A DNA stretch of 64,000 bases. It comes from Crambe crambe (lineage: Eukaryota; Porifera; Demospongiae; Poecilosclerida; Crambeidae). The DNA lies in contig OZ004584.1 in assembly GCA_963924555.1 (NCBI GenBank), positions 6,447,001-6,511,000 of the forward strand, given 5' to 3'. Both the position numbers and the translations under genes were made by a program. The notes below the pieces were generated by a model that saw nothing but the letters and a program-made list of their open reading frames with translations, ran no database searches and was not told where the DNA came from. Of the stretch, positions 16,801 to 63,839 are shown in pieces. The first letter of the stretch is position 1; the number at the start of each line of letters is the position of its first letter.

Positions 16801-19333
16801 TCACAATCAGCTGTTTACTACCAGTCTTAGAAGTTTGAAAAGTTACCAGGACTTTAGATCTCTTCTCCTCTTGTTCTTTGATTTGATTCCATCTCTTGGA
16901 CCACATTCTTATTAATCCTAATGGGCACGAAAGGTCAAAGTTTTCAATGGATATTTCCATGCGGAGCAGCCCAGACATGAGTCTCTCTTTCACATCGTTC
17001 ACTTGGCGGATTGAGCCGTGAATTTCAATAATGCCGTTATCAGTGTCGTTATCAGGAGGAAAGAGTGTTAGTCTTGAACAATTTCTTCTCAACTCTTCAA
17101 ACTCTGTTTGGTACAGCTTCAGTAGCTGACATACTTGATGGCTTACAGGTATGAACTTTGTAGTGATCAAACTGGACTCTATCAACTGTTTGATTTCATC
17201 ATAGCACCGTTGGACTTCTTCTGAGTATAAGCCATGGATAGTCACTGATGAAGTATGGTCATGTGTTATTTGAACTTTGTACCAATTTTCGAGTTCGAAT
17301 TTCACATCCTTGATGGTTTTCTCAGCTCCTTTGTGAGGCATACGGTAAAACTTCGAGCATGGATCCAAGAGCTGAAGTGATTCAGAAACCTTCTCAAAAA
17401 GCTTTGGATTTCTGGAATAAATATACACAACTATTAGATCGTCTTTTGAGTGATGGCTTCTTTTCCTACGTTCTCTTTCTTGCTGCTTTAGAATAGTGTA
17501 TTGGAATGTAGATTCATCTAATTTCAGAGGTCTAAGAATTGTTTGTTCAATCAGTGACTGGGACTTTGGGTTGCAAGTGTATGCGAACTTTCCACTCAAC
17601 AGTCCTTCAAAGATATCAGTACACATTTTTTCCATTGACAGCTGAATTTCACTTTTGTTGCCAGTGAGTATCACCTTATCTCCATTGAAAGTGACTTTAG
17701 CAGGAAGCTGGGATATGAAATCTCTTTTAAACAATTTCAGGTATATGGCTTCTTCAGGTTTGCATCCAAGGTGATGAGCATTGAAGGAAAGAAGCTCCAT
17801 TATCACAGGAACTGCATTTTCAAGGCTAGTGGAATCGAATGAATACAATACCACGATTGACTTTCTCTGAGATGACTCTGGGTAGCACATGTAGACAGGG
17901 TCTTTGAGTTGCTTTCTGATCTTTTCTAGACGATTAACATGACATTCTTTTTCTAATATCATTTCTTTTGAGAGCAAGCTGTCCACGAGAGCTTTAACAT
18001 AGCTATGAGCTTTCTCTATGCCAGATAGGGGACCTTCAAATCGAATACTTGACACATTTCCTTGATAGTCTACAATTTGGATTCCATATTTCTGATGGAT
18101 ATCTGCAGGCAAGGAGGGCCTCAAATGCACTAGGGCATCCATCTTCAACCTGTCAACATAAAAATAATTATACAATAAAAATGCTCATACCTCCCACCTT
18201 AACTCCAAAAAAAACAAACCATGAAAATTTAACCTAGCTATCATTTCTTGGGTGAAGTCTTTACCTATTCAAATAACCACTATACAGTACATTTTTTACC
18301 TGTCAATAGGCAGTTCTTTATTCAAGCTCCTCCATAGGAACATATAAGCATCTTCCACAGCATCACGTTTGCCAGAAAATCTCACACTCTGATCCTTGAA
18401 CAGTGGTTGAATGATGACATTTTGGTTGCTATCGAATGGAGACATTATCTCTTTAAGAGCAGCACGTCCACTCGAGTTCAACATCAGAGTGTTCCATTGG
18501 TTGGAATCCAGTCTCAGTATCTTTTCGTGGCTGCACTGTTCTAGAGATTTCGCCTTCTGAGTTTGCAGTCTTGCAACCTTGACTCTGATCGTCACGCCAT
18601 CCAGTACACTGTTGTTCAGCATAGAAACTGCACTCTGTGCTGAGTGTGGGTCGTGGAAATTGACGTGAGCATACTTTGATGAATCAACGACGTGAATGAC
18701 AGGTTCACCTTTGATTTCTCCTGCCTGTTTGAAATGTGAATACAGCTTTTCCTTTGTTACAGTAGGAGGGAGATGGGTGACCTTCACTGACGACCCTCCC
18801 ATCAGAGGCTGAACATGAGAAGGGCTTTGTGGAGCAAGTTTTTCTGACTGACTTCGACTGAACTCGGGAGAGTGAGATGAAGAAATTGGTCTCACCATCG
18901 GTGAGGAAAGACCATTACTGCTAGTACTTTCAGATGACTGGCTTTGTTTAATCATGTGATCACCAGAGGTAACTAAGCCAGGAGTCACTGTACTATCACT
19001 GGATGATTCCTCAAGATTCAGTGGGAAATTTGAACTGAACTTCACATCTATACACATCCCAAACAAAGTGCTAAGGTGTAAAGCCCGAATCGCTTCTTGG
19101 GCTACTTTGTTCCTTGAAAAGAATATAAAACCATAACCTTTGAACTTATTCGTCTTCTCATCACAGACGAGTTCAATATTACGAATGTTTGGTGCAAATT
19201 CCCTGAAGTGTTCACGAATGTGGTGTTCGGTAGTGTACTCAGGCAATTTGGATCCAAAAAATACTCTGCACTGACCACCCATTCTGGAACTAGTCTTAGA
19301 TTTGGTGTAGTCATCTTTCTTCATGGTGTCCAT
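13880..19333 (-). CDS. PARP14-like mono-ADP-ribosyltransferase, copy 1
   Basis: Exons 19333-18300 and 18149-13880 join in phase (gac ag|g) to give 1,767 residues. Domains in order: RRM (about 23-100, CRVFFGSKLPEY), a second RRM (about 181-255, VKVTHLPPTVTKEKL), KH-like repeats (about 270-1020), one macro domain (about 1028-1200, VDAIVNAANEDL, the ADP-ribose loop), a Pro-rich repeat linker, two WWE domains (about 1295-1430, WQWLNSEG and YQWLYQDG) and a C-terminal PARP catalytic domain (FHGT...YFAVSASYSDNY). In the catalytic triad His and Tyr are present but the third position is Val (VFMTYDNDKAYP) instead of Glu, which predicts mono- rather than poly-ADP-ribosylation. PARP14-type proteins bind RNA and ADP-ribose and act in antiviral and interferon-like signalling. 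The ATG sits right after an acceptor-like tatatag, so a 5' leader exon may exist. Confidence 0.9.
15304..15490 (-). repeat. in-frame Pro/Ser/Asn repeat in PARP14-like copy 1
   Basis: Roughly eight degenerate units of the form P(N/S)SP(P/K)KLVP lie between the macro and WWE domains. At DNA level these are purine-rich direct repeats (ggaacc-aatttgggag). PARP14-like copy 2 has no such array at the matching position, so the expansion is specific to this gene. Confidence 0.85.
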
Positions 19334-27486: not shown

Positions 27487-29995
27487 ATGGCTGGAAAAGT
27501 TTCAGGTGGTAGTCGACCTCACTCCTACATATTTTTATCGTGGAAAGTGGTTCGTATTGTAACCATACCCACAGAATTATTTTTACCAAGGGCTATAGTT
27601 TTCGCTTCACTGCTGATGAAGTTGCTGCACTGACTGAGGAAGAGTGTGTGATTTTGGATGGCATTAGCTCTGATGTCAACCGCTTCATTGCGTACAATAC
27701 TCCCGGGAAATCGAAGTGGGGGGTGGTCTTAAGGTAGGTGACATTCTCTTGGCCCGACTCCCTGGTATAAGTGGGCGTGGCTCCTCTGGAGAGCAGCACC
27801 AGTACACAACTGCTATCATTAGGTGGCGTGGCCAGACTGCATTTGGTGGTCATAAATATGGAGTGGAAATCACTGTAAGTACTTTCATTAAAGCTAGGGT
27901 TGCAATTATTATAAAACCTCTGAACGATAGGTCCCAGCCTTTTATCCTTTGTAGAGAGGTTGTCCTCTTTTGGAGGTTATTTTTTTATAGGAGTGGTTAG
28001 AGTAATGGCAGGCAAATTAATATTTCAGACTAAGGGAAAGAGTACTGTATTTATTTCTGGGCTTCACCTATTTCCCGGAATGGAACGGACCGGAATGGAC
28101 AGGGGCTACTATTCTGCGGAACGGACCCCTTAAGAAGTGCCCATGTGCATAAAAAGGACGGAGCAGCCCGGAACGGGGCTAATATTCTACGGAATGGACC
28201 TCTAGAGTGCACTGAACTTCAAAAAATAATTATTTCATCTTGCTGAGCCCTGCCCCTTTCACCTTTGACCTTGCTAACAGCATTGATATGACAAGATGAA
28301 TGTGACTTATCCTGCTAGCTAGCTACAAGATAATTATACATGAGGGCTCATTGAGTCTTCATCTTGTCGATCATCTTGTTGCAAATGCAATGATCAAATG
28401 TACTATAATGGTTCTATTGCATCATGAGGGTGTCACAGTGATAATGAACCAGAAACTCATTGGTTTTGACATTATAGTTAGTTCCGGGCCGTTCTGTCCT
28501 TTTTATGTGCATGGGCACTTATGTAAGGGGTCCGTTCCGTCTAATAGTAGCGTGGAACTGTCCGTTCCGGTCTGTTCCGTTCTGGGAAATATTGAGGCCT
28601 TAATTTCCTGCCAGTACTCTAGCCAGAGTACAAAGGTACTTTTAGTTTATTATCCTTTGTTGAGGCTTGTCCTCATTTGGAGTGTCCTTTATTGGCAATT
28701 CCAGTGTAATTATGCTGACTTCCATTAATTTTTATGTAGGACAAGAAGTATCGTGATCATGGAGATACTGATGGCACACATACATCAGTGGAAGGAAAAT
28801 ATTTTTCCTGTGAAGACAAATGTGGTTTATTTCTGACTTTGGATACCATAGAGCAACTACCCCATAAGAGTGTACCATCCATTGCTGAGTTACAGGGTCA
28901 AAATGAACAGTTGGAGAAAGAACTGAGAGAGAGAACACAAGAAATTCGTCATCTCCAGCGCCAGCTTCAGGAAGAAAGAGAACAAGCGACTACGTAAGTT
29001 GCAAAGAGAGGCAAGGGACATGGTGCTTGCATTGCAAGAAGAGTTGAGGCAAAAAGACCAAGAAATGACACAAAATATGACTAGATTTGAAGAGCGGCTG
29101 GTAGAACAGAGGGAGAGTCATGTGATTGAGTTGCAGCATGTGAGGGAGCAGTATGAACATCAGCTTAATGAGGTCCAGCACGGGGGAGAGGCAGTGGCCC
29201 CTCAGCTATTGAATCTGTGGGAACTCCCACGTGAAGATGTCCATATCTCACAGACCATATTGGGAACTGGTGGGTGGGGCTATGTGGCCCGAGGCACATT
29301 CCGAGGACAAGTGGTAGCAGTGAAATGGAGGAATTCTCTCCCCACAGAACGAGGGGAGGGTGAGACGTGAGATCAGCATCATGGCTCAGGTCTGCCATCC
29401 CAACCTCCTCCTCCTAATTGGAGCGGTCTTATCCACAGAAGGGGCAGGGCCTTTGATCATTACTGAACTACTAGATGGATCCTTATGCTCTGCCTACGAA
29501 GCTAATATGTTGGAGGGAAAGAGCAAAGTACCAATCTTGAGGGATGTGGCATCAGCTCTCACCTACCTCCACTCCCATCGCACCCCCATCATCCACAGAG
29601 ATGTCAGCAGTGCCAACGTCCTCTTGGAAGAGACTAAGCAACCAATTCAGTGGAAGGCCAAGGTTTCTGACTTTGGATCAGCCAACCTGATTTACCTTGC
29701 CACCACTCCATTTGAGGGAGCAGCTGTGTACTCTGCCCCTGAGGTCAGCACAGAAGACCGGAGCCGACAGACAGCCAAGATAGACGTGTACAGCTTTGGT
29801 GTGCTGGTGTGTGAGGTGGCTTTGTGTCGCTTCCCTCCTGACAGAGATCAGTTCCCCTACATGCTGAGAGATGTGCACCATACCACTCTGGATATGTTCC
29901 CTCTGGTACAAGACTGCACCAACCATGCCCATCAAGACAGACCTGCAATGAGTCAAGTCCTGGAGAGAATCAACCAAATCAGGGACAAAAAATGA
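27487..29995 (+). CDS. CAP-Gly-like / coiled-coil / TKL protein kinase, with frameshifts
   Basis: The first ATG is 27487, but the link from it to the coding frame at about 27520-27730 is unresolved. The first block runs to a donor at 27875; the second exon is 28740-29995. Domains: an unrecognised N-terminus (FTADEVAALTEEECVILDG), a CAP-Gly-like fold split by the intron (GDILLARLPG, TAFGGHKYGVEI, GKYFSCEDKCGLFL), a coiled coil (LQGQNEQLEKELRERTQEI) and a TKL-type kinase (LGTGGWGYVARG, VAVKW, HRDVSSANVL, DFGSAN, APE). All catalytic motifs are present. Three single-base slips break the frame: the G run 27718-27723 (needs one more G), near 28972-28985, and near 29351-29360. The gene is therefore either decaying or affected by homopolymer sequencing errors. 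CAP-Gly domains bind microtubule or EB-type tails. Confidence 0.7.
28058..28600. mobile_element. foldback element in the kinase intron
   Basis: About 110-bp arms, at roughly 28058-28170 and 28485-28600, are reverse complements and contain repeated ggaacgga / tccgttcc words. The interior is not coding. It accounts for most of the 865-bp intron. Confidence 0.8.
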
Positions 29996-39954: not shown

Positions 39955-40280
39955 ACAAGTAAGGGAAAAAGCATTTCATGAAATGAAAAAAGATGTAGGG
40001 ATGACCACTGCTCAAAAAAGTAAGGAAACAAGAAGTAAGGAAACAAGAAGGATGGAAATGGGATCAATCTTTGTTCTGTATATCCAGCCAACAATCCCTA
40101 CATATACGTCAGGTAGCTTCAGATTATAGTGCAGTAATGTACGTATATGTAGGGATTGTTGGCTGGATATACAGAACAAAGATTGATCCCATTTCCATCC
40201 TTCTTGTTTCCTTACTTTTTTGAGCAGTGGTCATCCCTACATCTTTTTTCATTTCACGAAATGCTTTTTCCCTTACTTGT
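39955..40280. mobile_element. palindromic element, about 325 bp
   Basis: The ends acaagtaagggaaaaagcat and its complement bound arms of about 150 bp around a loop near 40105-40135. One arm includes an internal 13-bp direct duplication (agtaaggaaacaa). Half copies occur at about 41858-42040 and 55804-55975. Confidence 0.9.
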
Positions 40281-40650
40281 ACTACTATAGGATGAGCAGC
40301 TGTACTGCAATGCAGCAAGGAGTGTCAGGAAGATCATCAGATAAGAATAAATAGCTAGCTAAACGATTAAACTGAAGACCTAGCTTAGAGATGAACTGAT
40401 TAGGCTGCACTGTAGCCACATGTGCACTTATACGTGGCCCCGCCCATACGCCCTGCCCCCTACTGATGTGCGCTTCAAAATGGCGTAGAAAGATTAGCCA
40501 AGTGCTATTGATATCACTGATTTGTAAAGTAGCGCTTTAGTCAAAACGAATAGCAAAAGATCAGCCTCTAGGTGCCGCTCTAACAGGTGGCCAAAGCAGA
40601 ATTTTGATGACTATAGCCAGTAATTCGGTACGTCGATCTATTATCCTATT

Positions 40651-40895
40651 ACAAGTGAGCGCAAAAAATTTCTTCTAAATAAAAAGTTAAGTAGGGATAA
40701 CCTCTGTATAATGTACTGCAGCCTCGTATGAAAATAATCCCTACATTTACATCCACTACCTATAGCTAGCTATGGGCCGTTGTAAATGTAGGGATTATTT
40801 TCATACGAGGCTGCAGTACATTATACAGCCCAGTTAGACTTTAGGCTATCCCTACTTAACTTTTTATTTAGAAGAAATTTTTTGCGCTCACTTGT
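40651..40895. mobile_element. palindromic element, 245 bp
   Basis: The ends acaagtgagcgcaaaaaatt and its complement are followed inside by tcttctaaataaaaagttaa and agtagggat. The arms are about 110 bp around gctagctatgggcc. Lone ends of the same type are seen near 25115-25160, 34642-34690, 38526-38580 and (degenerate) 49215-49275. Confidence 0.9.
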
Positions 40896-41182
40896 TTCTA
40901 TCCTTTTTTTATGCTTGAAGTTGAAAGTAAGTTTGTGTAAGTAAAGAATTGAGGGTGGCAGTATTGATCGTCACTTGAACTGAGAGTATGCAGTGATTAT
41001 TATTTGACATGAGGCTACAGTACAAAGCCAGCTCTACATAAACCTATCTTTTTTTCTTTTGTAGGCACATACACAGTCTCTGGAAGGATTTATTTAGCTA
41101 TTTAAGTTTTGTCTATCATTTAATATAAAACTTTACAGCAATAGCAATGTAAATGACATGTCCATGGCATGGTAAAGACGTG

Positions 41183-41830
41183 CGCTTCAAAATGGCGTAG
41201 AAAGATTAGCCGAGTGCTATCGATCACTGATTTGTGGAAGTAGCGCTTTAGTCAAAACTAATAGCAAAAGATCAGCCTCTATGTGCCACTCTAACAGATG
41301 GCCAAAGCAGAATTTTGATGACTATAGCCAGTAAGCCGGTACGTCGATCTTATTATTATTATTATTGTTATTATTATTATTATTATAAAGAAATAGAACA
41401 AAAGTCAATTTTAGACATTGTTTTTTTCTTATGTTAGCGAATGAATTTTTGGTTTTGGAACATTCTCCTCTCTTCTTTGTAGATGTAATAATTCACTGTA
41501 GCCTTCTGAGAACCTGTAGAGTAAGGGTAGAAGAGAAAGAAGAGTTTTTAGTTTATACAGTCCTATGACCTTTGACCCGCCATCCCTACTTAGAGAGTGC
41601 TAACGCACTCTCGATTATAAAGAAAAGTCAATTTTAGAACTTGTTTTTTTCTTGTGTTAGCGAATGAATTTTTGGTTTTTGAACATTCTTCTCTCTTCTT
41701 TGTAGATGTAATAATTCACTGTAGCCTTCTGAGAACCTGTAGAGTAAGGGTAGAAGAGAATTAGTTTATACAGTCTTATGACCTTTGACCCGCCATTTCT
41801 ACGCGTTAGCACTCTCGATAATAATAGTGT
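41183..41830. repeat. right arm of the 3.9-kb inverted repeat plus partial tandem copy
   Basis: 41183-41615 mirrors 37741-38165. 41625-41830 repeats the part from caattttagaacttg to gcgttagcactctc in direct orientation, so the end of the arm is duplicated in tandem. Confidence 0.75.
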
Positions 41831-42059
41831 ACACAATTAAGCTTGATTATATATAATAAGGGAAAAAACATTTCCGTGAAATGAAAGATGACCATTGCTC
41901 AAAAAAGTAAGGAAACAAGGGTAGGGATGAAGGATGGAAATGGGATCAGTCTTTGTTCAGTATATCTAGCCAACAATCCCTACATAATTATAATTATGTA
42001 TGTCAGGTAGCTTCAGATTATAGTGCAGTAATATACATAATATGCATGATGAAGTGAAG

Positions 42060-44163
42060 TTGAATGCACCCTCTGTCTGTCTTTATCAGATATCAAGTCT
42101 GTTACTTCTGACATATCAACTTCCAGTGACAAGATCAAAGTTTTAGTCCACTCAAGACCCAAATTTTCAAAAGCCGTCTCCAATAGGAAGTTTAGGCAAC
42201 ATTTCAAAGAGTTTGAATCTGGGATCAGCAATGCATTTATTGCAAAAAATAGCAAGACATGCCAATCCCTTGGATTTGGAATCATTTTCTTTTCTTCTCT
42301 AGAAATGGCCAACCTTGCTATTCAGAAAATGAGAAATACTAAAGTCATAGGAGAGTTTCAAATTATTTCAATTGGTTTTGGAAAAGGTGAACTTCAATCA
42401 CCTTCAGGTCCCTCTTTGGTGGATAGGACCGAGTTTAATGATGGTGCAAGCATCGCTTCAGGCAGAAGTGGTTTCCAGCCAACTTATAGTGGACCTGTCC
42501 ACTCACAACCTCCTGCAGACTGTGTCATTATTGAGAATATCGATCCCTCTTTCAGTGAGAGTGAAATAAGTGCCCTCATTTCTGTTCCGATGTTGTCCTT
42601 TAATCGTCTTCCACCTCCTTCTAATGGAGTCATGATAAAGCTCTACCCGAATACAGATGCCCATGCTATTGCACAAAGTCTCAATGGAAAGAATGTGATG
42701 GACCGGTGTATTCTTGCCTATGTCCCTCGGACTAATCCAGCACCTTCTCCTAATGTGGGTGCCACCCATCAGCCACCTCGTGCTCTGGCAGCAGGTCCTC
42801 TGCCAGCATTTGTTCAGGGTCAGCCACCTGTGACAGGTCCTCTGCCAACATTTGGTCCAGGCCAGCCATCACGTCATGCTCTGGCAACAGGTCCTCCAGC
42901 AGCATTTGGTCCAGGCCAGCCATCACATCATGCTCTGGCAACAGGTCCTCCACCAGCATTTGGTTCAGGCCAGCCAGGTACATCCCATGCATATGGCGGT
43001 GGTGCTCAAATGCCCAGCTCCCCAAACCAAAAGCAACTACAACGAGCGTACGGCAACCCTCCTTTCTCACCTACAGCTCCAGTCCCTCCAACAATGCGGA
43101 CATCTCATCCTCCAACTGTGAATCCAACCATGTCAACAGAGTCAGCCACACATCAAGCTGATTTTCAATACCCAGATCCACAACAAGCATCAGTGAAAGT
43201 TACTCACCTCCCTCCTACTATAACCAAAGAAAAACTGTATTTGCACTTCAGAAAGGCAGGGGAAATCAAAGGAGAACCTGTTATTCATGTCACTAGTAAA
43301 TCTGTTTTTGCTCATGTTAACTTCTACCAACCCATGTCAGCACAGAATGCAGCTTCTATGCTGGACAATAGCATCATTGATGGTACAAAGATCAGAGTTA
43401 AGCTTGCTCGAACGAAGTCCATTGAACGTGATAACTATGAAGAAGTTCTGAAATTGGATCCCAATCAGTGGAACACGTTGATGCTGGTTAATCCAAACAG
43501 TGGAACATCACTATTCCAGGATGCAATATCTCCTTACAAGAGTAACCCCAATGTGATCATTCAGCTAGAATATGAGAACCAGAGCGTGAAATCCTCAGGG
43601 AAGTTTGATGCTGTGGAAGATGTTCATTCCACCCTCAAGCGACAGTTGAATAAAGAACTTCCTGTCGACAGGTAAGTACATTGTAGATCATCTTAATGTG
43701 CTGTATATATACCATGTACTGTGAAATCTTCATGGTTTGCCAAAATATAAAGTTCCACTACTCTCAGTATTATTTTATTTCTTATTTCTTGCAGGTTAAA
43801 GAGAGAAGCTTTGGTTAACTTGAGGCCATCCTTACCTTCTGAGATCAACCAGAAGTATGGAGCACATATTGTCGACTATCAAGGATTTGGGCCAACAATT
43901 CGATTCGAAGGTCCCATAACTGGCATTGAAAAAGCTCATGGTGAAGTGAAAGCTCTCGTGGATAGCTTATTTGTGGAAGAAGTGATATTCAAAAAGGAAT
44001 ATCAAGTTGATCAACTTGAAAAGGCAAGGAAACATATTAAAGTTCCAGTTTATATCTGTTGTCCAGACTTATCACAAAGAAAGTCAGTAGTACTGTTTTC
44101 ATTTGATCACACTACTCTTCAGAATTCAACTCCTCGTGTAGTTCAACTTCTTTCTATGAATGC
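42060..44163 (+). repeat. segmental duplicate of PARP14-like copy 2
   Basis: Homology to the gene at 56999-63635 (opposite strand) begins near 42060, in the sequence encoding the linker before the third RRM, and ends in the KH-like exon after gtgaatgctt/atgaatgctt. The copy lacks RRM1-2 and everything after the first 120 or so residues of the long exon. The left breakpoint abuts a half foldback element (41858-42040). Confidence 0.85.
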
Positions 44164-47100
44164 TTATAAAGAACTTCCTGTCGACAGGTATTTAGCATAT
44201 CTCCTGTGCATGGTATCTTTTATTATTACCATCTATTTCAATCATGCAGGTTGATGACCTCATTCAACCCCAAGAATCAATTCAGCATGAGTGCTCTTTC
44301 TATGCTGGAGGAAGAAGGAATCCAGGTGATCACATCACTGGCAAAGGTCCACACTGAACTGATCAAAGCTGCAGGAATCACTTTGGATAAAACTGTCCAC
44401 CTTCAACTCTTGTCTGATCCTGTTAAAGCTGTTAAATTTGTGATCAGCCAATGGGAATCTCCAGGAAAGAGTCGTCATCCTCCAACCTGGACGTCACTGT
44501 TCAATGTACTGAAGAAACTTGAACTGAACAAACTGAGTGTGCAGATTGAGGACTACCTCACTGGTGAGTAGAGATTTCATACAAATGTATATTGTGTGGG
44601 TATCATCCAATTCCTAGGCTTTCATCTGGAAAGGTTGTGGAGGGGGGGGTATGTATGTCTTGGACCCTTAGGAATATGCTGCTTAACCGATATAAATTAC
44701 AGTGCAGAGTTTTAGGGGGAAAGCAAAATTCTTGTAATTAAGGGAGAAAGCAAATCTCCCCACTCCCAATTACCTTCATAATATGCTTAGTTGCCAAACA
44801 TTCCAAAGTTGGTGGGTACCCTCCAAAGTTGTAACTGTAGTGAGCACCAGGTGTGCATTATTTAAAGGAACTCTACTCAGAAACTGAACTCTCTTATCCC
44901 ATCAGGCAAAACTGAGTACTTGGATGCGTACCGCCAAATCCTTGCCATGCAAGAATCCATAGAAATATTTTTTGTTAAAATGGCTTTTGTTGGAGGTCCT
45001 CGTTTGGGAAAGACAACAGCCCGTCGCCGCCTGACTGGAGAAATCACAGACATCACTTCAGCTGGAGAGGTAGAGCAGCCTAGTACGGGTGTAGTTGAGT
45101 CAGGTCGAGTCATTATCAGGAACTTCTCATGCACTACAGCCATGGTAACACAAACAGATTGGTTAGCGGCCAAAGACCTTGCTGACGAGGCATGCATGTT
45201 CCTACGTTGTTTCTATCAGCATTTTTTTCAACAGAAAAAATGGGAAATATCCGATACTAACTCCAATGAAGAAAGTGCGAGTGATGTGTCCAGCATTCAT
45301 GAGATGCCTTTATCTGAGGATAAGTCTACTCACCCTCCGGAAAGAGGCAGCAGTAGTCTACTCTCTGACATGGAGGAAGAAATGGCTGACTTCTTCCGTG
45401 ATGCCATGAGCAAGAATAGTAGTCATATTATGAAGCAGCTCTTCACAGATGCAGCACTACTAAACATGGAAGACACAGGGGGCCATCCTGAATTGATGGA
45501 CATGCTACCAGCACTCACCATTGGTCCTGGCCTTTATCTTTTATTTTGTAAGTTGATCGATGACCTCCAGAAAAGTTACACTGTCTCCTATCTCAGTCCA
45601 TCGGGTGAGTCCACTTTGCCGGTTGAGTCCATTTATACTATGGAAGAAGTCCTTCTCTCAGCTCTAGCCAGTATTGCTTGCTTCAAGTCGTACAGCTCAC
45701 AAGAGAGTAACGAAGGAGCCTCTAATTCCAAATTGGACGAGCTTTTAGCTTCTTCTTCTAAATCTGTTGCATACATAATTGGGACACATAAAGATAAAGT
45801 GTCTGAAGAGGAGATCGACAAATTTGATCAAAAATTACAGAATACAATTCGATCTACTGATTTCTTTAAGGGTGATCTAGTCCAGTTTTCCTCCGAAGGC
45901 AGAATGATACTCCCCATTGACAACATGACAGGGGGGGCCGATGAAATCAGAGAGATTCGTACCTTTTTGGAGAGTGGTTTGAAGAAGCATTTCAAGAAGC
46001 TTCGCATCCCAGCTGCATGGCTGATGCTGAGTCTCTGCCTGCGAAAGAGAGACAAGAGAATAGCCAGTCTGCAGAGTTGCATACAACTGGCTGAAAGGCT
46101 TGGCATGACAGCTGCTGATACAAAGACAGCTCTGTGGTTCCTCCACTACCATGCCGGAGTTTTGATGTACTTCCCCAACCTACCCGAGTTAAGTGACATG
46201 GTCATTTGTAATATTCAAATCGTATTCGATAGTGTTACCAATCTGATCATCAATGCATTTAAGTTTGGTCGAATGGGTGTGGCTTCCTCTGAGAGGTTTA
46301 AGAAAACTGGACAGTTCTCTCTGGAAGATATCAGAAGCAGTATTGTCTCGGGAGACTACATACCCCTGGAACAACTGGTGAAGCTGTTGGAACATCTAAA
46401 CATCATAGCTCCCATAGTCCAGTCTGACCCCAGTCCTTCGCAGAGTTCAAAGGTCTACCTGATGCCCTGTGTCCTTGAGAGTATGAGCAGCAAAGAACTG
46501 GGTGACTCCCGAAAGAATGATTCCAACCAACTCCTTCCTGCCTCTCTCTTGATTCGATACAAATGTGGTTTTGTACCCCTTGGGGTCTTTCCTGCCACCA
46601 TTGCCAACTTAGTTGGGCAGAGCTCACACAAACTCAAGTTGATTGAAGAAGGCATCAAGAAGAATCGAGTGCAGTTTCGACTTGGAGCTGATCGTGACAC
46701 CATCACCCTTATTTCCCAACCAAAGTACTACGAGGTATCCATCAAGAGAGAAACGTTCACTAAGACCCCAACACACGAGGTGTGTCATGCTATTCGAGAG
46801 ATTATTCAGCATACGCTAGAGACAGTTACCTCTTGTATGAACTACACCTTTACTGTGAACTACCAACTCTCCTTTGAGTGTCCTTCTCACCCTGGAAGAG
46901 ACCATTTGTGTGTTGTTGACAGTGAAGAGTCTTGTCCTTACAAAATGGACTGCCTCAGGAATCCTGAAAATTGTAAACCAGTGGAAATGCAAAGTCAGCA
47001 TTTGGTGTGGTTTGGAAAGGTAAGTAAATTGTAGCTGCATATGGTATGGTGTGTATTATATAGAATAGTGCTTATATGTCCCCTAATATTATATGTAATG

Positions 47101-48706
47101 TGCATGACTATAGTTCACATTGTACTACTGTAGCCCATGACTGGAGATGGAAGTGGTGTGAATGGACCTGACCCAGTTCTCCCCTCAGGTTAGTGTGAGT
47201 CCCATTGTCCTCCATGGATCCACTCTACACTGTAACTACATGTCACAGGACCAGATTACCAATCCTACCTCTCACGTCTCCCAGTAGATGCACGCCCCCA
47301 CTTGGAGTGGCAGTTGGACTGGGGCCATGGGGGAGTGGACAGTGACCTGAATGAGATAGCGGACCACTTACTGGACTGGGAGGAGAAGCTCTCTGTTCCT
47401 CTGGGACTGACTGGCACTGACATTAGTGACATCAAGACCATGCATCAGAATAAACCTCAACTGCAGAGGTGAGGTTAGAGCACTTGGTGTTTTTTGGCTT
47501 CCCAGATCCCATTAAAGTGGTTATTATGGTGGGGAATCCTCCCAATGTTTAGATAGATCCCAACACCTAAGAAACTTAACGTCTCTTCCCTCTCCCTTCC
47601 CTTGCACGAGGACAAATCTCCCCCCCTAACTGAGAGTCCAGTGTGAATCACTGATCTGTTTGACTAATAGACGAGAGGTACTGAGGAGGTGGAAGGAGAA
47701 GCAGGGTCTTGCAGCCACCTATGGGAACTTGCTGGAGGTGTGTGTGAAGGCTGGACACACTCAGTCTGCTGAGGCCATCTGTGAAGTGCTAAAGAAGAAA
47801 CGTAAGATTACCTTGATAATGTGTGTATCTAGTGGTAACCATTTTCTACAGATGTCGGCAGCATTTCCAAAACATCCAAGACATCTTTGAGTACGAGTGA
47901 GGCTTCTACCTCTAGCCACACCCACTGTTCCCCTAGCACTGATGGTGGAGGACATATGAGAGGACCTCAATCAGCACCTCAATCCAGTGAGTCTCCAAGT
48001 GGTCATGACGACCACACATCATGTTGTCCACTTTCAACATAATGTTACTTCTTTCTTCTCATAAGGTCTCCACTCTCTTGTTACTCCACTCTCAGCAACC
48101 AATCAATTAGGGACTTCCCCATCAAGTGCTGGACAACATGTGAGTTAATCTCTCAGTTGCCATTTGATTTTTACTAGTGAAGGGATTATATTCTATCAGG
48201 CCAGTGGAACTGAGTGGAAACAAGTTCTTGAAATGATAGATGATTCTGAACTAGGTGAGTCATCAGATCTCCCTCAAACTTACAATGAGTCAATGTTGCA
48301 TTGATAATAGATCCTGAAGACATAACAGATGTGATGGATGACGTGGAGGACTTGGCCGCCAGTTGGGACACCCTTGCTACTTACCTCAGACTGAAGACCA
48401 GTGCCATTGAGGTCATCCGCAGGAATAACTCTGGAAATTGTAGCAGGTGCCTGTTCAACGCCATTACTGAGTGGTTGAAGCAGAATTACAACACTGCCAA
48501 ATATGGCAAACCGAGTTGGAGGCAACTAGCAGCTGGTGTTAGGAAGCTTGATGGAGGAATATTTGAAAGGATAGCCACAGCACACCCAAGAGGTAAGGTG
48601 TTATACTACTATACTATGTACATAGAAGATGACAGTTTTGATGGAGTATTATCATGTGATTTCATTTCTCTCTTCATCTTCAGGTGTTGTTGGAGAGGAG
48701 GGATAG
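42305..48706 (+). CDS. chimeric RRM/KH - Death - Roc-COR GTPase - Death - Death protein (12 exons)
   Basis: Exons 42305-43671, 43795-44187, 44250-44563, 44906-47019, 47134-47188, 47249-47468, 47671-47801, 47852-47986, 48066-48139, 48200-48254, 48311-48592 and 48684-48706 are all phase-consistent and give 1,720 residues. Residues 1-586 are nearly identical to PARP14-like copy 2: end of an RRM, RRM (about 72-145, DCVIIENIDP), Pro-rich linker, RRM (about 297-370, VKVTHLPPTITKEKL), KH-like. Then come a Death domain (about 600-690, TWTSLFNVLKKLELN), a Roc GTPase (G1 GGPRLGKTTA about 721, G3 EDTGGHPE, G4 GTHKDKV), a COR-like region to about 1395, a second Death domain (ADHLLDWEEKLSV...AICEVLKK), a Ser/Thr-rich linker and a third Death domain (DLAASWDTLATYLRL...SWRQLAAGV). 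No macro or PARP domain remains. The likely role is a cytosolic GTP-regulated death/immune scaffold with RNA-binding N-terminus (inference). The true start may lie upstream: the frame is open to an acceptor at 42089/42090. Confidence 0.8.
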
Positions 48707-50784: not shown

Positions 50785-52692
50785 GATATCTATGGTTCAG
50801 AAGAAGTCTCATTGGTGTTTCGGGAGACTACATACCCCTAGAGCAACTGGTGAAGCTGCTGGAACATCATAGCTCCCATCACTCTGTCCCATCCTTCTCA
50901 GACCTCATCTACCAAGAGTTCAGAGGTCACCTATCTAATTCCTTGTGTCCAGAATGCAGCAAGGGAAGAACTGGACACATTCCAAGGACATAACTCAAAC
51001 CCTCTATTGTCAGCTTCTATCCTGATCCGATACAAGTGTGGTTTCATACTACTTGGTATCTTCCCAGCTGCAACAGCCAACCCATCAGCCACAACTCACT
51101 TACCTTGATCCAACAAGGAATCGAGTCCAGTTTTATGGATGTGATGCTGATGTGGTCACCCTCATCTCCCGACCAAAACACTACAAAGTATGTGTCACTC
51201 GACTTTTGAGTGCTAAAACCCCACTGCATGAGGTTTGTGTCAAAGTACGAAAGATCGTAGAATCTTCTCTTAAACGGTCACCTCAAGAACAAACTATGCT
51301 TCTTGCATGGAGCACGACGTGTCCTTCAAGTGTCCCACTCACCCTGAGATGGACCATCTGTGCATTGTGAAGAGCAGGGAGACCTCTCCTCACCTAATGC
51401 ACTGTCTGTTGGACATGAAAGATCCCCAGCCCTTGGAAAAGAAGGAAAAGCACTTAGTGTGGTTTGGAGAGGTAAGTGGTTAATCGTATTGTATCACTTA
51501 TTCATCTCATTGTACTACTGTAGCCCATGAAGTGGTGTGAATGGACCTGACCCAGTTCTCCCCTCAGGTTAGTGTGAGTCCCATTGTCCTCCATAGATCC
51601 ACTCTACATTGCAACTACATGCCACAGGACCAGATTACCAATCCTACCTCTCACATCTCCCAGTAGATGCACGCCCCCACTTGGAGCAGCAGTTGGACTG
51701 GGGCCATGGGGGAGTGGACAGGGACCTGAATGAGATAGCAGACCACTCACTGGACTGGGAGGAGAAGCTCTCTGTTTCTCTGGGACTAACTGCCACTGAT
51801 ATTAGTGACGCCAAGAAGAAGTATCAAAATGAACCTGCACTACAGAGGTGAGCACTTGATGTTCTCTGGCTTCTCAGTTAGAGGTGGAGATCATGCAAAG
51901 GAAGGGGAGAGACATTATAAGGCATCTTTGTTTCTCAGGTGAAATATTTTGTTGGGACCTGTAATATTTGAACTTTGGGGGATATCTTAGGTTTTCTCCA
52001 CCATAATATTAAGTGGAAGGAGAAACAGGGTCTTGCAGCCACCTATGGGAACTTGCTGGAGGTGTGTGTGAAGGCTGGACACACTCAGTCTGCTGAGGCC
52101 ATCTGTGAAGTGCTGAAGAACAAATGTGAGAAATTAAGATTACCTTGATAATGCGTGTATCTAGTGATAACCATAGATGTTGCCAGCATGTCCAAGACAC
52201 CCAAGACATCTTTGAGTACGAGTAAGGCTTCTACCTGTAGCCACACCCACTACTGTTCCCCTAGTACCGACGGTGGAGGACATATGAGAGGACCTCAATC
52301 AGCACCTCAATCCAGTGAGTCTTCAGGTGGTCATGTCAGCTACACATGTCACGAATGTCCACTCTAATCTCAACTACATAAATCCACACCATCCAGGTAC
52401 ACCACCCCACTTGACCACACCCACTAATTACCTGGAGGAGCAACCCAGTCTGAGAGACCTGTGCAAGAAGTTGTGAGGGATTAGTGAGGAGTGGAGGGAC
52501 ATGGGGTTGTTCCTGGACTTGCAGGAGGAGGAACTTGAAGAGGTGGAGTCGTGTCATGGCCCCTCCCCTTTCCAATGCATGAAGGCCATGTTTAAAGTGT
52601 GGCTGTCCAGAGAACAACCTCCTCCCACCTGGGCCACTATCAGAGAGGTCCTGGAAGACCTTGGATATGAACAGTTGGTCCTCACTCTCTGA
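50785..52692 (+). pseudogene. decayed copy of the COR/Death-domain part of the chimeric gene
   Basis: It matches 46325-47986 in order: COR segment (ggagactacatacccctaga), the CGFV/FPAT region with frame breaks, a VWFGE end with donor, the short exon (51525-51567), the Death exon 51629-51849 (DYQSYLSHLPVDARP) and then 52013-52122, whose 5' part including the RREVLRR segment is deleted. The Ser/Thr-rich exon is 52172-52316. A further exon 52396-52692 encodes another Death domain (MFKVWLSREQPPPTWATIREVLEDLGYE) but has an in-frame TGA at 52474-52476. Frameshifts, deletion and stop make it a pseudogene. The last Death exon differs from that of the chimeric gene, so the parent copy had a different 3' end. 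Confidence 0.8.
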
Positions 52693-56998: not shown

Positions 56999-59900
56999 TT
57001 AATATGAGATGAGGTATGCAGGGTAGGCCTTGTCATTATCATAAGTCATGAAGACTTGAGAGCCATTAGTGTGTCCTGTTACAGTGTCATACTTCATCTG
57101 AGAGAACTGGACATCACCTCCCTGAGCTCCTCCAGTTGTTGGCTTGGCTGGAGGCATGCGCAGAGAACGATTAGATGGACATTCATGGCTATCACCAGTC
57201 AGCACCTTGACAAGAAACATCTCTTTTCTTCCCATCTGAGATTGATGAACATAGTTATTAGAATAACTGGCATTAACAGCGAAATAGTTAGCCACACCCC
57301 ACATCCCCTGAGCTCCATATCGCATGTCAAATCCGTCTTCACCTTCATATATCAACTTCGGGTCATTGCTACGTGTTCCATGAAACAGCTCCATCTCATT
57401 GACACGACCTTGGTTCTTTCGATCCAAACGTTTCTTCTGAATAGCATACTTTTCCCACAGCCATTTGTTCTGTATGCGAGCGATACTGTGAATTGGATGA
57501 CCAGCCATTGTAGCTGCAAACTTCCCCTCTACCTGCTGCCACTCGGGACTGCCATGAGTCACTTGAAAGAGCTCAGTGGTTTGAGTCTGCTGCACCCATT
57601 CAGAGGGGAACTGAAGATCGTCTTCAGATGCAACAGATGTCACATGAAAGGTAAGAATCTCTTCATTGATAGCATGAACTGCAGCCTGAACTTTGAAGCG
57701 CACTCCTTCGACCTTCAACACTTTGTACTTTTTTCCTTTTTTGGATTTCTCTTCAAATGAATACACGAGGCTATTTTTCTTTGCAATTTGTTGAAGCTTC
57801 TTCTTCAGAGCTGGAGTCATATTCTTTGGAAGAGTATCCAAGACTTGAGAACTGGTGGCACTCGTCAACTTGGACATTAATTTATACTCTGCAGCTCCCA
57901 AACTCTCATATGGACCTCGTAAGGTCAAAATGATATCATTTGATAGCTTTGGCTCATCTTCTTCATCATCTTCATGTTTCCCCTCATTACCTGGAGATTC
58001 CAAGAGTGTTTCAATTTTGGGATCATTTCTTGTGCGTCGAAATATTTTACGTTTGAATCCAGTGGCTATGTTAATCTGACACATTTGAGTGAAATCAAAC
58101 GTATACATCTTTCCATTGATGGTCAACTGACCAGGAGTTTTGGACAGGAACATGGTCTCGATTGACTTTGAATCATTAGGTTTGTAATAAACACATGCAG
58201 AAGTATCATCTTGGTACATCCACTGGAAGTCTGAGGAATCGAATATTTGAGTGATAGATCTGGAGTGACCAGTGAGACTATTAGTCTGCGTCATCTTAGC
58301 AACGTCAATAACATATGGAACACCATTTATTATGACTTGAATGGATCCCTTCGGAATTGACTGAAAAGCAGCAGTCAGACGGTTGGAGATTTCACTGCTG
58401 TAGGAAGTAAATGTTCCTTGGTCATTCAGCCACTGCCAGTTTCTGGTGAGTTTTGAAGCTGGATTGGATTCAGGGACGCATGCACGCCTGGGTTGAGGAG
58501 GTCTTAGAACTGATTGGTTGCCATACTGATACTCCCCACACTGACCTGACACGATCAGTGGTTTGAAGACATTGACAGAACTCTGTTGGAATAGTATAAA
58601 TTTCACTGTACTGATGGAGGTGTATGGAAAAGCTTGGCAAAAATCTCGTACTGCTTTCAATGATGCTCTGGCACATATGTCTTCTGGCACATTGAATACT
58701 CCTGTGCCAATAGCAGGGAAAGCTATGGAAGAGAGTGATTCATTAGATGCTGCCTCGAGGCTCTTGAAAACAGAAAAATACAGAGTCTGCTCCTCATTGC
58801 AGTGACCACCCATCCAGCGAGGTCCGACAGCATGGATCACTTTTTTGCAAGGGAGATCTCCAGCTCCTAGACCAACTGCTTGTCCAGGTTTAACCTTGCG
58901 GTTCGTGCGAATGTAGTCATCACTTTCAGTCTGTATACTTGGTCCACCAGCATCCGAAATAGCTTTAGCCAGTCCTCCAATATGCTTCAGATCTTCATTG
59001 GCAGCATTTACGATAGCATCAACCTGCTCATGAATGAGATCACCTTTGCAGATGTCAATTTTGACATACCCTGCACTATCCAATCGAATTAACGAACTGC
59101 ATATGAGCTTGGTCACTTTGCCAGATTTAGGATAAGAACAAGTCACACAGAGATCACTTTCAAGTTTAGACTGAAATCTTGTGAATTCGGTAGATGTTAG
59201 CAAGGGAACATGGAGAGCTTTAATAGGCACTTTTTTCTCTCCAATGGTTTTCTCGATTGCTTCAATCACGGTTGTCTGAATGAGTGGTTTGACTTTGGCA
59301 ATGGCAGTCTCAGAACCACTGATACGAAGACCCACACTGGGTTTTTTTAGAACGTGCACAGAGGCTCGATGCTGTCCAGCGATGGCATTAGCATTTGTTA
59401 TATGATGCACTGATCTCACAGGTGAAAGTAATATCAAGCCTACAACAGGATCTTTACTGCAAATGACGTGGCTTGTGCTTGCACGGTCACCAACAAATTT
59501 TCGAATTTGTTCCTCAGCAATGGAAAGATTTTCCCCAAGTTCCTTGGGGGCAAATACAGTGACTTTGTTTGTAGATTTGTCTACATGCCCAACATTTACG
59601 ATGACGTTATTCAGAAAGTCCAGCTTTTTGTCTTTTTTGGCTTTAAGTAGACAATTTGCACCATTTGATGATAACTCAATAATTTTTTCTTCAGCCTGAA
59701 CCCCTTCAGTAAGGATTGCATCCTTGACTTCTTGTACTCCGATCTCGTCAGTTCCAATAACCGTGAATTTGACATTTAGTTTATTGTCACCACTGCCCTG
59801 ACCTGACTTGCTGAAGGTAAGAAGAACTTTCAACCTTCTTTCTTCCTGCTGCTTGACTTGATTCCATCTCTTGCACCACATTCCAAATAGACCAGATGGG

Positions 59901-62900
59901 CAGGAAAGGTCAAACTGTTCCACTGATAAGTTCATACTGAGGAGTCCAGAAGAAAGTCTTTCTTTAACGTCATCCACTTGACTGATTGAGCCTTTGATTC
60001 TTATAACCCCATTAACATTATCTTTATTTGGAGGAAGGACAGTCAATTCTGAGCAATCTCTTCTCAATTCTGCTAGTTCTGTCTGATACAGCTTCAACAG
60101 CTCGCAGACTTGTGGGTTTACGGATACATACTTCACTACCATCAAATTAGACTCAATAAGCTCTTTTATCTCGTCGTAGCATTGCTGCACTTCTTCTTGA
60201 GTTAAGCCATGGATAGTTACAGATGAAGCTCGGTCCTGCATGATTCGAACTTTGTACTTGTTTTCTAACCTGATTTTGTTCTCACTGATCATAGATGCAG
60301 CATTTTCATGGGGCAAACGATAGTATTTGGAGCCAGGATTCAAAATTCGAAGTGACTGGCATACTTTTTCAAAGAACTCTGGGTTTCTGCAGTAAACGTA
60401 AACAGTTATTACTTCGTCCTTTGCTTGATGACTGTTTTTTCTTCGTCCTTTTTCTCGACCGGTTTGTCCAGACAGCTTTGGTGTTATATATTGGAAAGTA
60501 GGATCATCCAAGAGAGGTCTAAGAATGGTTTCTTCAATTTGAGATTGAAACTTTGGGTTACAAGAATAGCTGAATTTTTCACTGCACAATCCTTCAAAAA
60601 CTTGAGCACGGATTATTTCTTTAGATGATCGAATTTCACTTTCTCCACCATTCAGTGTTACTTTCTCTCCTGAACTGTCAAATGTGGCTTTGGCTGGAAG
60701 TTTGGATATGAAATCTTTCTTGAAATATCGTAAGTACACAGCTTGTTCAGGTTTGCATTCCAAACGAAAAGCATTCACAGAAAGAAGTTGAACTACACGA
60801 GGAGCTGAATTCTGAAGAGTAGTGTGATCAAATGAAAACAGTACTACTGACTTTCTTCGTGATAAGTCTGGGCAACAGATATAAACTGGAACTTTAATTT
60901 GCTTCCTTGCCTTTTCAAGTTGATCAACTTGATATTCCTTTTCCAATATCTCTTCTTTCGAGAACAAGCTATCCACGAGAGCTTTAACTTCACCATGAGC
61001 TCTTTCAATGCCAGTTATGGGACCTTCGAATTGAATCGTTGGCCCAATTCCTTGATAGTCAACAATATGTGCTCCATACTTCTGGTTGATCTCAGAAGGT
61101 AAGGATGGCCTCAAGTTAACCAAAGCTTCTCTCTTCAACCTGCAAGAAATAAGAAATATTTTAAACATCATAGCCACAAAATTTTTCATGCATAGATTGG
61201 AACTTTTTACACTTGTATTTTAAAAATTTCACAGTATATGGTATTACGCACCTATCAACAGGAAGTTTTTTATTCAACTGTCGCTTGAGGGTGGAATAAG
61301 CATCTTCCACAGCATCAAACTTCCCTGAGAATTTCACGCTCTGGTTCTCATGAACTAGCTGAATGATCACATTGGGGTTACTCTTGTAAGGAGATATTGC
61401 ATCCTGGAATAGTGATATTCCACTGTTTGGATTAACCAGCATCAATGTGTTCCACTGATTGGGATCCAATTTCAGAACTTTTTCATAGTTATCACGTTCA
61501 ATGGATTTCGTCTCAACATTTGGAGATTTCGTTCGAGCAAGCTTAACTCTGATCGTTGTACCATCAATGATGCTATTGTCCAGCATAAAAGCTGCATTTT
61601 GCGCTGACATGGGTTGGTAGAAGTTAACATGAGCAAAAACAGATTTACTGGTGACATGAATAACAGGTTCTCCTTTGATTTCCCCTGCCTTTCTGAAGTG
61701 CAAATACAGTTTTTCTTTGGTTATAGTAGGAGGGAGGTGAGTAACTTTCACTGATGTTTGCTGTGGATCTAGAGATGGCACACGAGCAATAGGGGGTTGA
61801 AAATCAGCTTGATGTGTGGCTGGCTCTGTTGACATGGTTCGATTCATAGTTGGAGGATGCATTGTTGGAGGGACTGGAGCTGTAGGTGAGAAAGGAGGAT
61901 TGCTGTATGCTCGCTGTAGTTGCTTTTGGTTTGGGGAGCTGGGCATGCCAAGATTAGGATGGGTTGATGGCATTTGAGCACCACCACCATATGCATGGGA
62001 TGTACCTGGCTGGCCTGAACCAAATGCTGGTGGAGGACCTGTTGCCAGAGCATGACGTGATGGCTGGCCTGGACCAAATGTAGGCAGAGGACCTGTCGCA
62101 GGCGGCTGACACTGAGCAAATGCTGGCGGAGGACCTGCTGCCAGAGCACGAGGTGGCTGATGGGTGGCACCCACATTAGAAGGAGGTGCTGGATTAGTCC
62201 GAGGGACATAGGCATGAATACACCGGTCCATCACATTCTTTCCATTGAGACTTTGTGCAATAGCATGGGCATCTGTATTCGGGTAGAGCTTTATCATGAC
62301 TCCATTGGAAGGAGGTGGAAGACGATTAAAGGACAACATCGGAGCAGAAATGAGGGCTCTTATTTCACTCTCACTGAAAGAGGGATCAATATTCTCAATA
62401 ATGACACAGTCTGCAGGAGGTTGTGAGTGGACAGGTCCACTATAAGTTGGCTGGAAACCACTTCTGCCTGAAGCAATGCTTGCACCATCATTAAACTCTG
62501 TCCTATCCACCAAAGAGGGACCTGAAGGTGATTGAAGTTCACCTTTTCCAAAACCAATTGAAATAATTTGAAACTCTCCCATGACTTTAGTATTTCTCAT
62601 TTTCTGAATAGCAAGGTTGGCCATTTCTAGAGAAGAAAAGAAAATGATTCCAAATCCAAGGGATTGGCGTGTCTTGCTATTTTTTGCAATAAATGCATTG
62701 CTGATCCCAGATTCAAACTCTTTGAAATGTTGCCTAAACTTCCTATTGGAGACGGCTTTTGAAAATTTGGGTCTTGAGTGGACTAAAACTTTGATCTTGT
62801 CACTGGAAGTTGATATATCAGAAGTAACAGACTCGACATCGGACAAGCTCTCACTGTCCCCTTGAGAGGGAGCATTGACATGACCTGATGGGGGAGGGAC

Positions 62901-63635
62901 ATAGGGTGGAAGAACTGGTCCAGGAAGGACAGAGGATTGAGAAATACTTGGTACTTGCTTAGATTTTTCTAAACTGACTCTGACGCGTATTCCTAGTAAA
63001 ATGCTCTGATCAAGAGCTTGTATTGCTGCTTTGGCAGATGCAGAACTTGAGAAGGTTATGAAACCGAAACCTTTGAACTGGTTGGTTCTCTTATCTCGAA
63101 TGAGTTCAATTTTAAGAATCCGTTTTTCAAACTTTACAAAATGCTCACGGATGTGCTGTTCATTTGTGTACTCAGGAAGTTTTGATCCAAAAAAAACTCG
63201 ACAGGGTTCAGACTTTGAAACACTTTTGGTCTTGGTAGGATTAGACGTAGTGACACCAGGAGTGCTAGATTCAGTGTTTTGGCTCTTCTTTCTAGCACGA
63301 GATCTCGTTTTCTTTACGTGAGGTTGAACAGTCAGTTGGTACTGTCCTTGAATCATGGATCCATTCAAATTCTTTACGACTTCATTTCCCACAGAAGCAG
63401 TCATTATAACTATAGCAGATTTATTATTTGTCTGTGCATGATAATTGATCATACTATTCCCATAACCAAAGTTAACGATATGCTCTTTCACATAGTCTTT
63501 CGCTTGCTGAGGAAATTTGAAGTGTAATTTCGAAACAGCTTCCCCTCTTGGGGCATTAGTTGCACTTGGATGGCTGGATACACTTGAAACTGACTCAGTA
63601 TCTGAGTCACTCTCATCTGTATCAAAGTCGTATGT
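56999..63635 (-). CDS. PARP14-like mono-ADP-ribosyltransferase, copy 2 (5' end unresolved)
   Basis: The long exons 63635-61252 and 61139-56999 join in phase (gat ag|g) and encode up to about 2,174 residues. Domains: an RRM-like segment (about 35-105, HFKFPQQAKDYVKEHIVNFG), RRM2 (about 142-215, CRVFFGSKLPEY), RRM3 (about 281-360, IKVLVHSRPKFS), RRM4 (about 408-480, DCVIIENIDP), Pro/Gly repeats, RRM5 (about 625-700), KH-like repeats, a macro domain (about 1485-1655, VDAIVNAANEDLKHIGG), two WWE domains (about 1695-1830) and a PARP domain (about 1988-2174, FHGTRSND, YFAVNASYSNNY, VFMTYDNDKAYP). The triad is H-Y-V, predicting mono-ADP-ribosyl transfer. An alternative acceptor at 63616 fits in phase with a possible upstream exon ending at 63792, but no start codon was found there. 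It is the source of the N-terminus of the chimeric gene. Confidence 0.88.
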
Positions 63636-63839
63636 CTGTATGAGTACAACATGCTATTTACTGTATGTACTATGTATAGGCTATTCCACAACCACAGAAG
63701 GCTGTATGGTTTAGAGCCTGAGGGCAAGAGCGTGGTTGTGGTATATAGCCTTATTTGGGCATTGTTATCACGAAACAGATATCACCCTGACCAACTTCCT
63801 GGGTTGTATCAATATCAGTTGTGCCTGTACTAGTGAATT

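Follow-up and report, generated by a model that had tools for sequence, protein, structure and literature searches.

The window, a stretch of 64,000 nucleotides of Crambe crambe DNA, carries at 42305..48706 on the forward strand a predicted gene in which a PARP14-like RNA-binding piece is joined to a Roc-COR-Death protein, and on the evidence of its sequence this chimera is real at the DNA level. Both the copying of DNA that gave rise to the front and the paralogy that ties the back to other genes of the genome (143,139,886 bases in 119 contigs were searched) are far beyond chance. We consider the chances about even that the locus is a young sensor-swap chimera, in which a PARP14-type RRM/KH piece has come to stand before a Roc-COR-Death member of an expanded Roco family.

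The first-pass annotation had described twelve exons in one open frame, and this description holds: the 12 exons have GT-AG borders and consistent splice phases, and they form a single frame that ends with exon 12 (48684..48706, stop TAG at 48704-48706). The frame comprises 1,791 codons counted from 42092, its 5' end being open, and 1,720 residues when counted from the first in-frame ATG at 42305, which lies in exon 1 (42090..43671, + strand). The agreement of the phases is weak evidence, because 10 of the introns sit where the parental matches also break, and were thus probably inherited from the parents, and only the junction intron is new; the phase of this sole new intron would fit by luck in one case out of three. 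In the full 1,791-residue frame, Pfam identifies two RRM_1 stretches and two Death stretches, with COR-A below its cut-off, and it finds no Macro, WWE or ART domain.

The PARP14-derived front

By its nucleotide identity, the front (42083..44165, + strand) was copied from a PARP14-like gene, as the first-pass annotation had proposed; the copy is recent and inverted. The copy is truncated at its 5' end and contains part of the RRM exon, one intron and the first part of the long KH exon; 42083-44165 matches 62846-60769 of the minus strand with 89% identity over 2,130 columns. The matching gene (56999..63653, minus strand), which is likely the sister of the donor, has RRM (three stretches), Macro, WWE (two stretches) and PARP catalytic domains by Pfam. 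Among the best 60 of its 134 matches to solved structures, a PARP14 macrodomain chain ranks first (E 6.8e-43) and a PARP9 chain next, and the C-terminus matches PARP15 and PARP14 catalytic chains. A further copy of the front lies outside the window (C6:6520490-6522002) and runs into a 1,377-codon frame, and a remoter one within it, at 13880-19333, shows 68% DNA identity over 1,028 columns. The PARP14-like genes are clustered and occur in both orientations (13880-19333 and 56999-63653 in the window, C6:6520490 onward outside it). Elsewhere in the window there are a tRNA gene (1792-1863; Rfam RF00005, 63 bits) and, at 28927-29995, frames that by eye suggest a coiled coil with a protein kinase after it.

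The front looks mosaic, because its parts differ in their nearest copy. The RRM exon is nearest to the neighbour in the window (dS 0.058 versus 0.102), whereas the first intron is nearer to the outside copy, from which it differs at 16 of 123 sites (compared with 51 of 112 for the window neighbour), and the KH exon is slightly nearer to the outside copy as well (18 changes versus 21).

Two RRMs had been claimed for the front. Both are present in the full open frame, namely RRM b (42167..42346, + strand; RRM_1, 28.3 bits, residues 26-85 of the piece) and RRM c (43196..43396, + strand; RRM_1, residues 369-435 of the full frame), but RRM b is cut by the ATG at 42305, and from this start, which the first-pass annotation itself had chosen, a single RRM passes Pfam (residues 298-364). 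The best solved relative of RRM c is poly(A)-binding protein 1 (E 1.6e-6). Its RNP1, judged by eye, is degenerate, so that even RNA binding is uncertain.

The KH-like sequence of exon 2 (43795..44187, 393 bases) is not confirmed as a KH domain: Pfam gives no KH match to this exon in the chimera, and the exon ends abruptly inside what is a long exon in the donor. The donor-type neighbour also falls below the KH_1 cut-off (17.4 versus 21.5 bits), and a structure model from three sequences gave no support for a KH fold at pLDDT 48. The exon has seven matches in the genome, of which only that of the chimera is cut short; it lies in a frame of 167 aa, and the other six lie in frames of 1,180-1,434 aa.

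The 5' end of the front counts against the chimera reading, given that the copied stretch begins within a PARP14 exon, with repeats in front of it, and that its first ATG cuts an RRM. We assign a clearly appreciable but lower probability to the alternative that the locus consists of two truncated fragments that happen to abut, a dead PARP14 piece and a Kelch-less Roco gene that starts elsewhere, their joint frame being the luck of youth. A front whose 5' end lies inside an exon is what this alternative would lead one to expect. Palindromic repeats, of which the window holds several copies, lie just before the chimera at 40030-40280, 40651-40895 and 41857-42044. One copy could, in purely mechanical terms, provide a 19-base first exon (ATG 41888 to 41906) that restores RRM b. 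A scan of 40001-42080 for first exons yielded five mechanical ATG-to-donor candidates, whereas 300 block shuffles gave 1.0 on average (P 0.017), but the repeats inflate this excess.

The Roc-COR-Death back and the missing Kelch exon

Judging from the exons and Roc motifs that it shares, and from part of its 3' flank, the back of the chimera is a member of a large Roc-COR-Death family, the Kelch-Roco family of the same genome. Exon 4 (44906..47019, + strand) contains GGPRLGKTTA (44992-45021), DTGGHPELMD (45472-45501) and IIGTHKDK (45775-45798), which correspond to the G1, G3 and G4 motifs of a Roc GTPase. They were aligned with 14 relatives, and G1 is kept in 13 of these, the frame of the remaining one (L046) beginning after it. 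The intact Roc P-loop with G3 and G4 that had been read from the sequence is therefore confirmed in the sense that GGPRLGKTTA, DTGG and THKD are common to the relatives. The Pfam Roc profile (PF08477) gave no match to exon 4 at E 1, and profile comparison with ten small-GTPase sequences of the genome aligned 46 columns, covering the P-loop only, with a probability of 13%. As for the claimed COR domain, a COR-A match follows Roc at 46009-46473 (25.9 bits, E 1e-5), but it stays below the cut-off of 35.3 bits; in a relative COR-A scores 28.9 bits. The two Death domains reported after COR both pass Pfam, the first in exons 6-7 (47249..47801, 40.8 bits) and the second in exons 10-11 (48200..48592), where the score of 22.6 bits equals the cut-off of 22.6.

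Roc-COR sequences are numerous in the genome. A COR-A search of the genome gave at least 150 matches (150 scored of 339 candidates) on C1, C3, C5, C8, C9, C11 and other contigs, many of them in frames of 650-800 codons clustered on few contigs, and the Roc-COR exon of the window as query gave at least 114 rows (63 scored of 492 candidates), including C6 and C18. The chimera locus points in this way to a much larger Roc-COR expansion, which may be a receptor repertoire. A second, broken fragment of the family lies 2 kb downstream of the chimera (50797..52363, + strand); it is 67-93% identical to relatives, piece by piece, and its frame is split among several short ORFs, showing the local look of decay.

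Exon 3 (44250..44563, + strand) had been annotated as a further Death domain. We found no Pfam Death match in the window copy or in five relatives, and the assignment is not supported. Profile comparison with the C-terminal Death domains of the family gave probabilities of 0.2 and 1.8%, although the profiles were thin, and a single-sequence model was helical but at pLDDT 51. The genome holds 50 match rows for this exon, that of the window included. Its 31 close relatives are on C6 and C12, with 24 of the 31 within C6:8.39-8.67 Mb; thirty are 72-79% identical to the window copy, and one is split into two rows of 68 and 83%.

All 31 of these close relatives have a Kelch-repeat exon no more than 2 kb upstream. 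Over the whole set, a Kelch exon lies within the same distance on the same strand for 45 of the 50 rows, which represent 44 exons because one of them is split in two, and in all 18 distinct relatives compared over their upstream sequence a Kelch-type exon lies just upstream; Pfam confirmed Kelch repeats in the one relative scanned. The 64-kb window contains no Kelch match, and in the chimera the PARP14-derived piece occupies the place of the Kelch exon. The other exon 3 matches that lack a Kelch exon are two divergent copies on C1, one copy on C8, for which the nearest same-strand Kelch match among those listed lies about 14.2 kb upstream, and one partial match, located on C5. The tally was made with the 51 strongest of 127 Kelch rows, leaving out 76 weaker ones, none of which is, by eye, near the chimera or these four other matches. 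The pair on C1 (C1:5928000-5930330 and C1:5939870-5942000) consists of near-identical family copies on opposite strands with what by eye look like degraded Kelch-like pieces. Because the Kelch exon precedes exon 3 in 31 close relatives, exon 3 is not normally a first exon, which speaks against a Roco gene that simply starts behind the PARP14 piece.

The junction, its predicted splicing and selection on the two halves

Front and back meet at a 25-bp filler (44166..44190, + strand) that is an exact copy of 43650..43674, the 3' end of the RRM exon, which is its probable source. The repeat ends with CAG/GTA, the RRM exon's own splice donor, and so brings a donor to the break. Of these bases, 21 have an exact match in the outside copy, and in the window neighbour 15 of 16 aligned bases match; because both match less of the 25 bp, the RRM exon of the chimera itself fits best as the template. 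One could envision that an assembly artefact has joined unrelated stretches here, since the junction was found only once in this genome. We regard this as extremely improbable, given that a short filler copied from nearby at the break is a feature of real repair events and that the junction lies inside a contig of 9,083,326 bases.

The new junction intron (44188..44249, + strand) has no other match anywhere in the genome, and the longer segment 44188-44260 likewise matches only itself. A parental source for it was sought in 15 Kelch-side and four PARP14-side stretches; none was convincing above shuffles, and in the best case (L036) one of 200 shuffles scored as high. Similarity of exon 3 to the family starts at 44255, right after the relatives' AG, in 11 of the 11 relatives compared. 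The Kelch exon of the relatives appears to leave phase 1, whereas the PARP14 exons leave phase 2, and the phases are reconciled by five additional bases, GTTGA, at 44250-44254.

With splice scores derived from ten introns of one gene, the new donor (CAG/GTATTT), which alone among the 11 donors lacks A at +4 and G at +5, scores 4.1, which is the second-lowest of the 11, compared with 12.5 for the RRM exon donor and 2.9 for one inherited donor; the junction acceptor is unremarkable (6.9). The weak donor, together with a phase that could have fitted by chance, can be read in favour of two abutting fragments. Under that alternative the junction intron might be retained, in which case the front frame stops at 44254, and the Roco part could use another start, for example the ATG at 44254, which the junction created. 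What argues for the sensor-swap reading instead is that the splice donor brought in by the filler is in the correct frame. A third possibility takes the donor scores in another direction: exon 2 is symmetric, with the same phase on both sides of its 393 bases, and joining 43671 to 44250 is therefore likewise in frame, so that the usual product might skip it and read RRM - helical - Roc-COR - Death - Death without KH. The difference between 12.5 and 4.1 favours such skipping, but the scores come from a single gene in which an inherited donor is lower still, and we think that this product is doubtful as the usual one.

The two halves differ in age and in the signs of selection. The Roc-COR exon is under strong constraint. 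In 12 of the 14 comparisons with relatives its dN/dS is 0.24-0.30, the remaining two being near or at saturation, and over 695 codons the differences unique to the chimera, with respect to its three nearest relatives, number 87 synonymous and 96 non-synonymous (an unrooted count). If these 183 changes were neutral, approximately 40-48 synonymous changes and 6-8 stops would be expected, and in neutral simulations of the exon none of 1,000 runs per setting reached 87 synonymous changes. For the whole frame, neutral evolution over 0.03 changes per site would have produced 5-7 stops, and there are none (P 0.002-0.004).

The front is younger: compared with the window neighbour, its RRM exon has a dS of 0.058 and a dN/dS of 0.47, and its KH exon a dS of 0.10 and a dN/dS of 0.45. 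Its branch carries 11 synonymous and 21 non-synonymous changes, with a joint neutral probability of 0.04-0.10, which is compatible with neutral evolution; these 32 changes were counted over codons common to all three copies, and the neutral runs used a front of 650 codons. The front may simply be too young for constraint to show, as the reading with two fragments would have it. Against that reading, the exon indels of the front relative to the window neighbour (9, 21, 21, 27 and 54 bases, some of them in repeats) each have a length divisible by three, and the front has acquired no stop.

Proposed function and relation to known systems

One possible course of events, if the sensor-swap reading is correct, would start from a member of the expanded Kelch propeller - helical exon - Roc-COR - Death - Death family situated in the PARP14-like gene cluster. 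The Kelch exon of this member would have been lost, and rearrangement would have set a 5'-truncated inverted PARP14-like copy in front of it, with the filler that matches the RRM exon's own end supplying the new in-frame splice donor; we infer this order of events from the junction. If the gene is transcribed, the input part of the protein would be PARP14-type RRM/KH sequence instead of a propeller, and the output, going by what Roc-COR, Death and RRM/KH sequences are known to do, would be a GTP-switched, Death-domain signalling platform. By the same analogy the RRM/KH part would bind RNA, Roc-COR would cycle GTP and the Death domains would recruit partners. The swap would then convert a propeller-gated platform into an RNA-gated one, and the protein may be an RNA-sensing death scaffold. 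The most far-reaching version, in which a GTP-switched Death scaffold with an acquired PARP14-type RNA-binding sensor is a snapshot of a Roco repertoire that swaps sensors and evolves like a set of immune receptors, seems to us unlikely.

Transcription of the locus would mean that a sensor exchange in an animal Roco-Death family has been caught shortly after it took place, while the genome still holds relatives of both parents, and that an antiviral-type RNA-binding module has become tied to a death-fold platform. If it is not transcribed, the locus is a datable pair of gene fragments.

The closest system is the Kelch - helical - Roc-COR - Death - Death family of the same genome, which has a Kelch exon where the chimera has PARP14-derived exons. 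PARP14 has three RRMs and eight KH domains, with paralogs in sponges (PMC13224862). The chimera resembles it in its RRM and KH-like exons, which are 89% identical in DNA to those of a neighbour that also carries Macro, WWE and PARP domains. It differs in that macro, WWE and ART domains are absent, the KH series is cut and Pfam recognises two RRMs at most.

The first-pass annotation had seen in the fusion a candidate for an undescribed system, knowing of no family that joins these domains. This goes too far, since the chimera is one member of a Roco family with its N-terminal Kelch exon replaced, and a related pairing has been published: there are about ten Crassostrea virginica proteins in which a DED-TRADD-N dyad is combined with KH, RRM, macro and ART domains resembling PARP14 (PMC8195603). 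They share with the chimera a death-fold domain joined to PARP14-type RNA-binding sequence, but have DED and TRADD-N where the chimera has Roc-COR and Death, and they keep macro and ART. The same report lists 357 proteins of the NCOA6-type TRADD-N clade in the sponge Amphimedon, many with unique architectures (PMC8195603). Within the available portions of the literature on sponge and invertebrate Roco, Kelch and death-domain architectures and on PARP14 with RRM or death domains, we recognised no paper describing this fusion.

In DAPK1, a kinase precedes Roc-COR and a C-terminal Death domain (PMC6337361). The last two are shared with the chimera but the kinase is not; Pfam detects no protein kinase domain at E 1 anywhere in the frame of 1,791 residues. 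Placozoan ROCO genes carry LRR, TPR, CARD and death domains, and brown algal ones have shuffled LRR exons (PMC11378527). Both are like the chimera in having a Roc-COR core with exchanged receptor-like domains; their input domains are others, and the available part of that account mentions no RRM or KH (PMC11378527). Seen beside the oyster DED-TRADD-N proteins, DAPK1 and these ROCO genes, the chimera is a variation on the fast domain exchange of marine animals and not a new kind of system.
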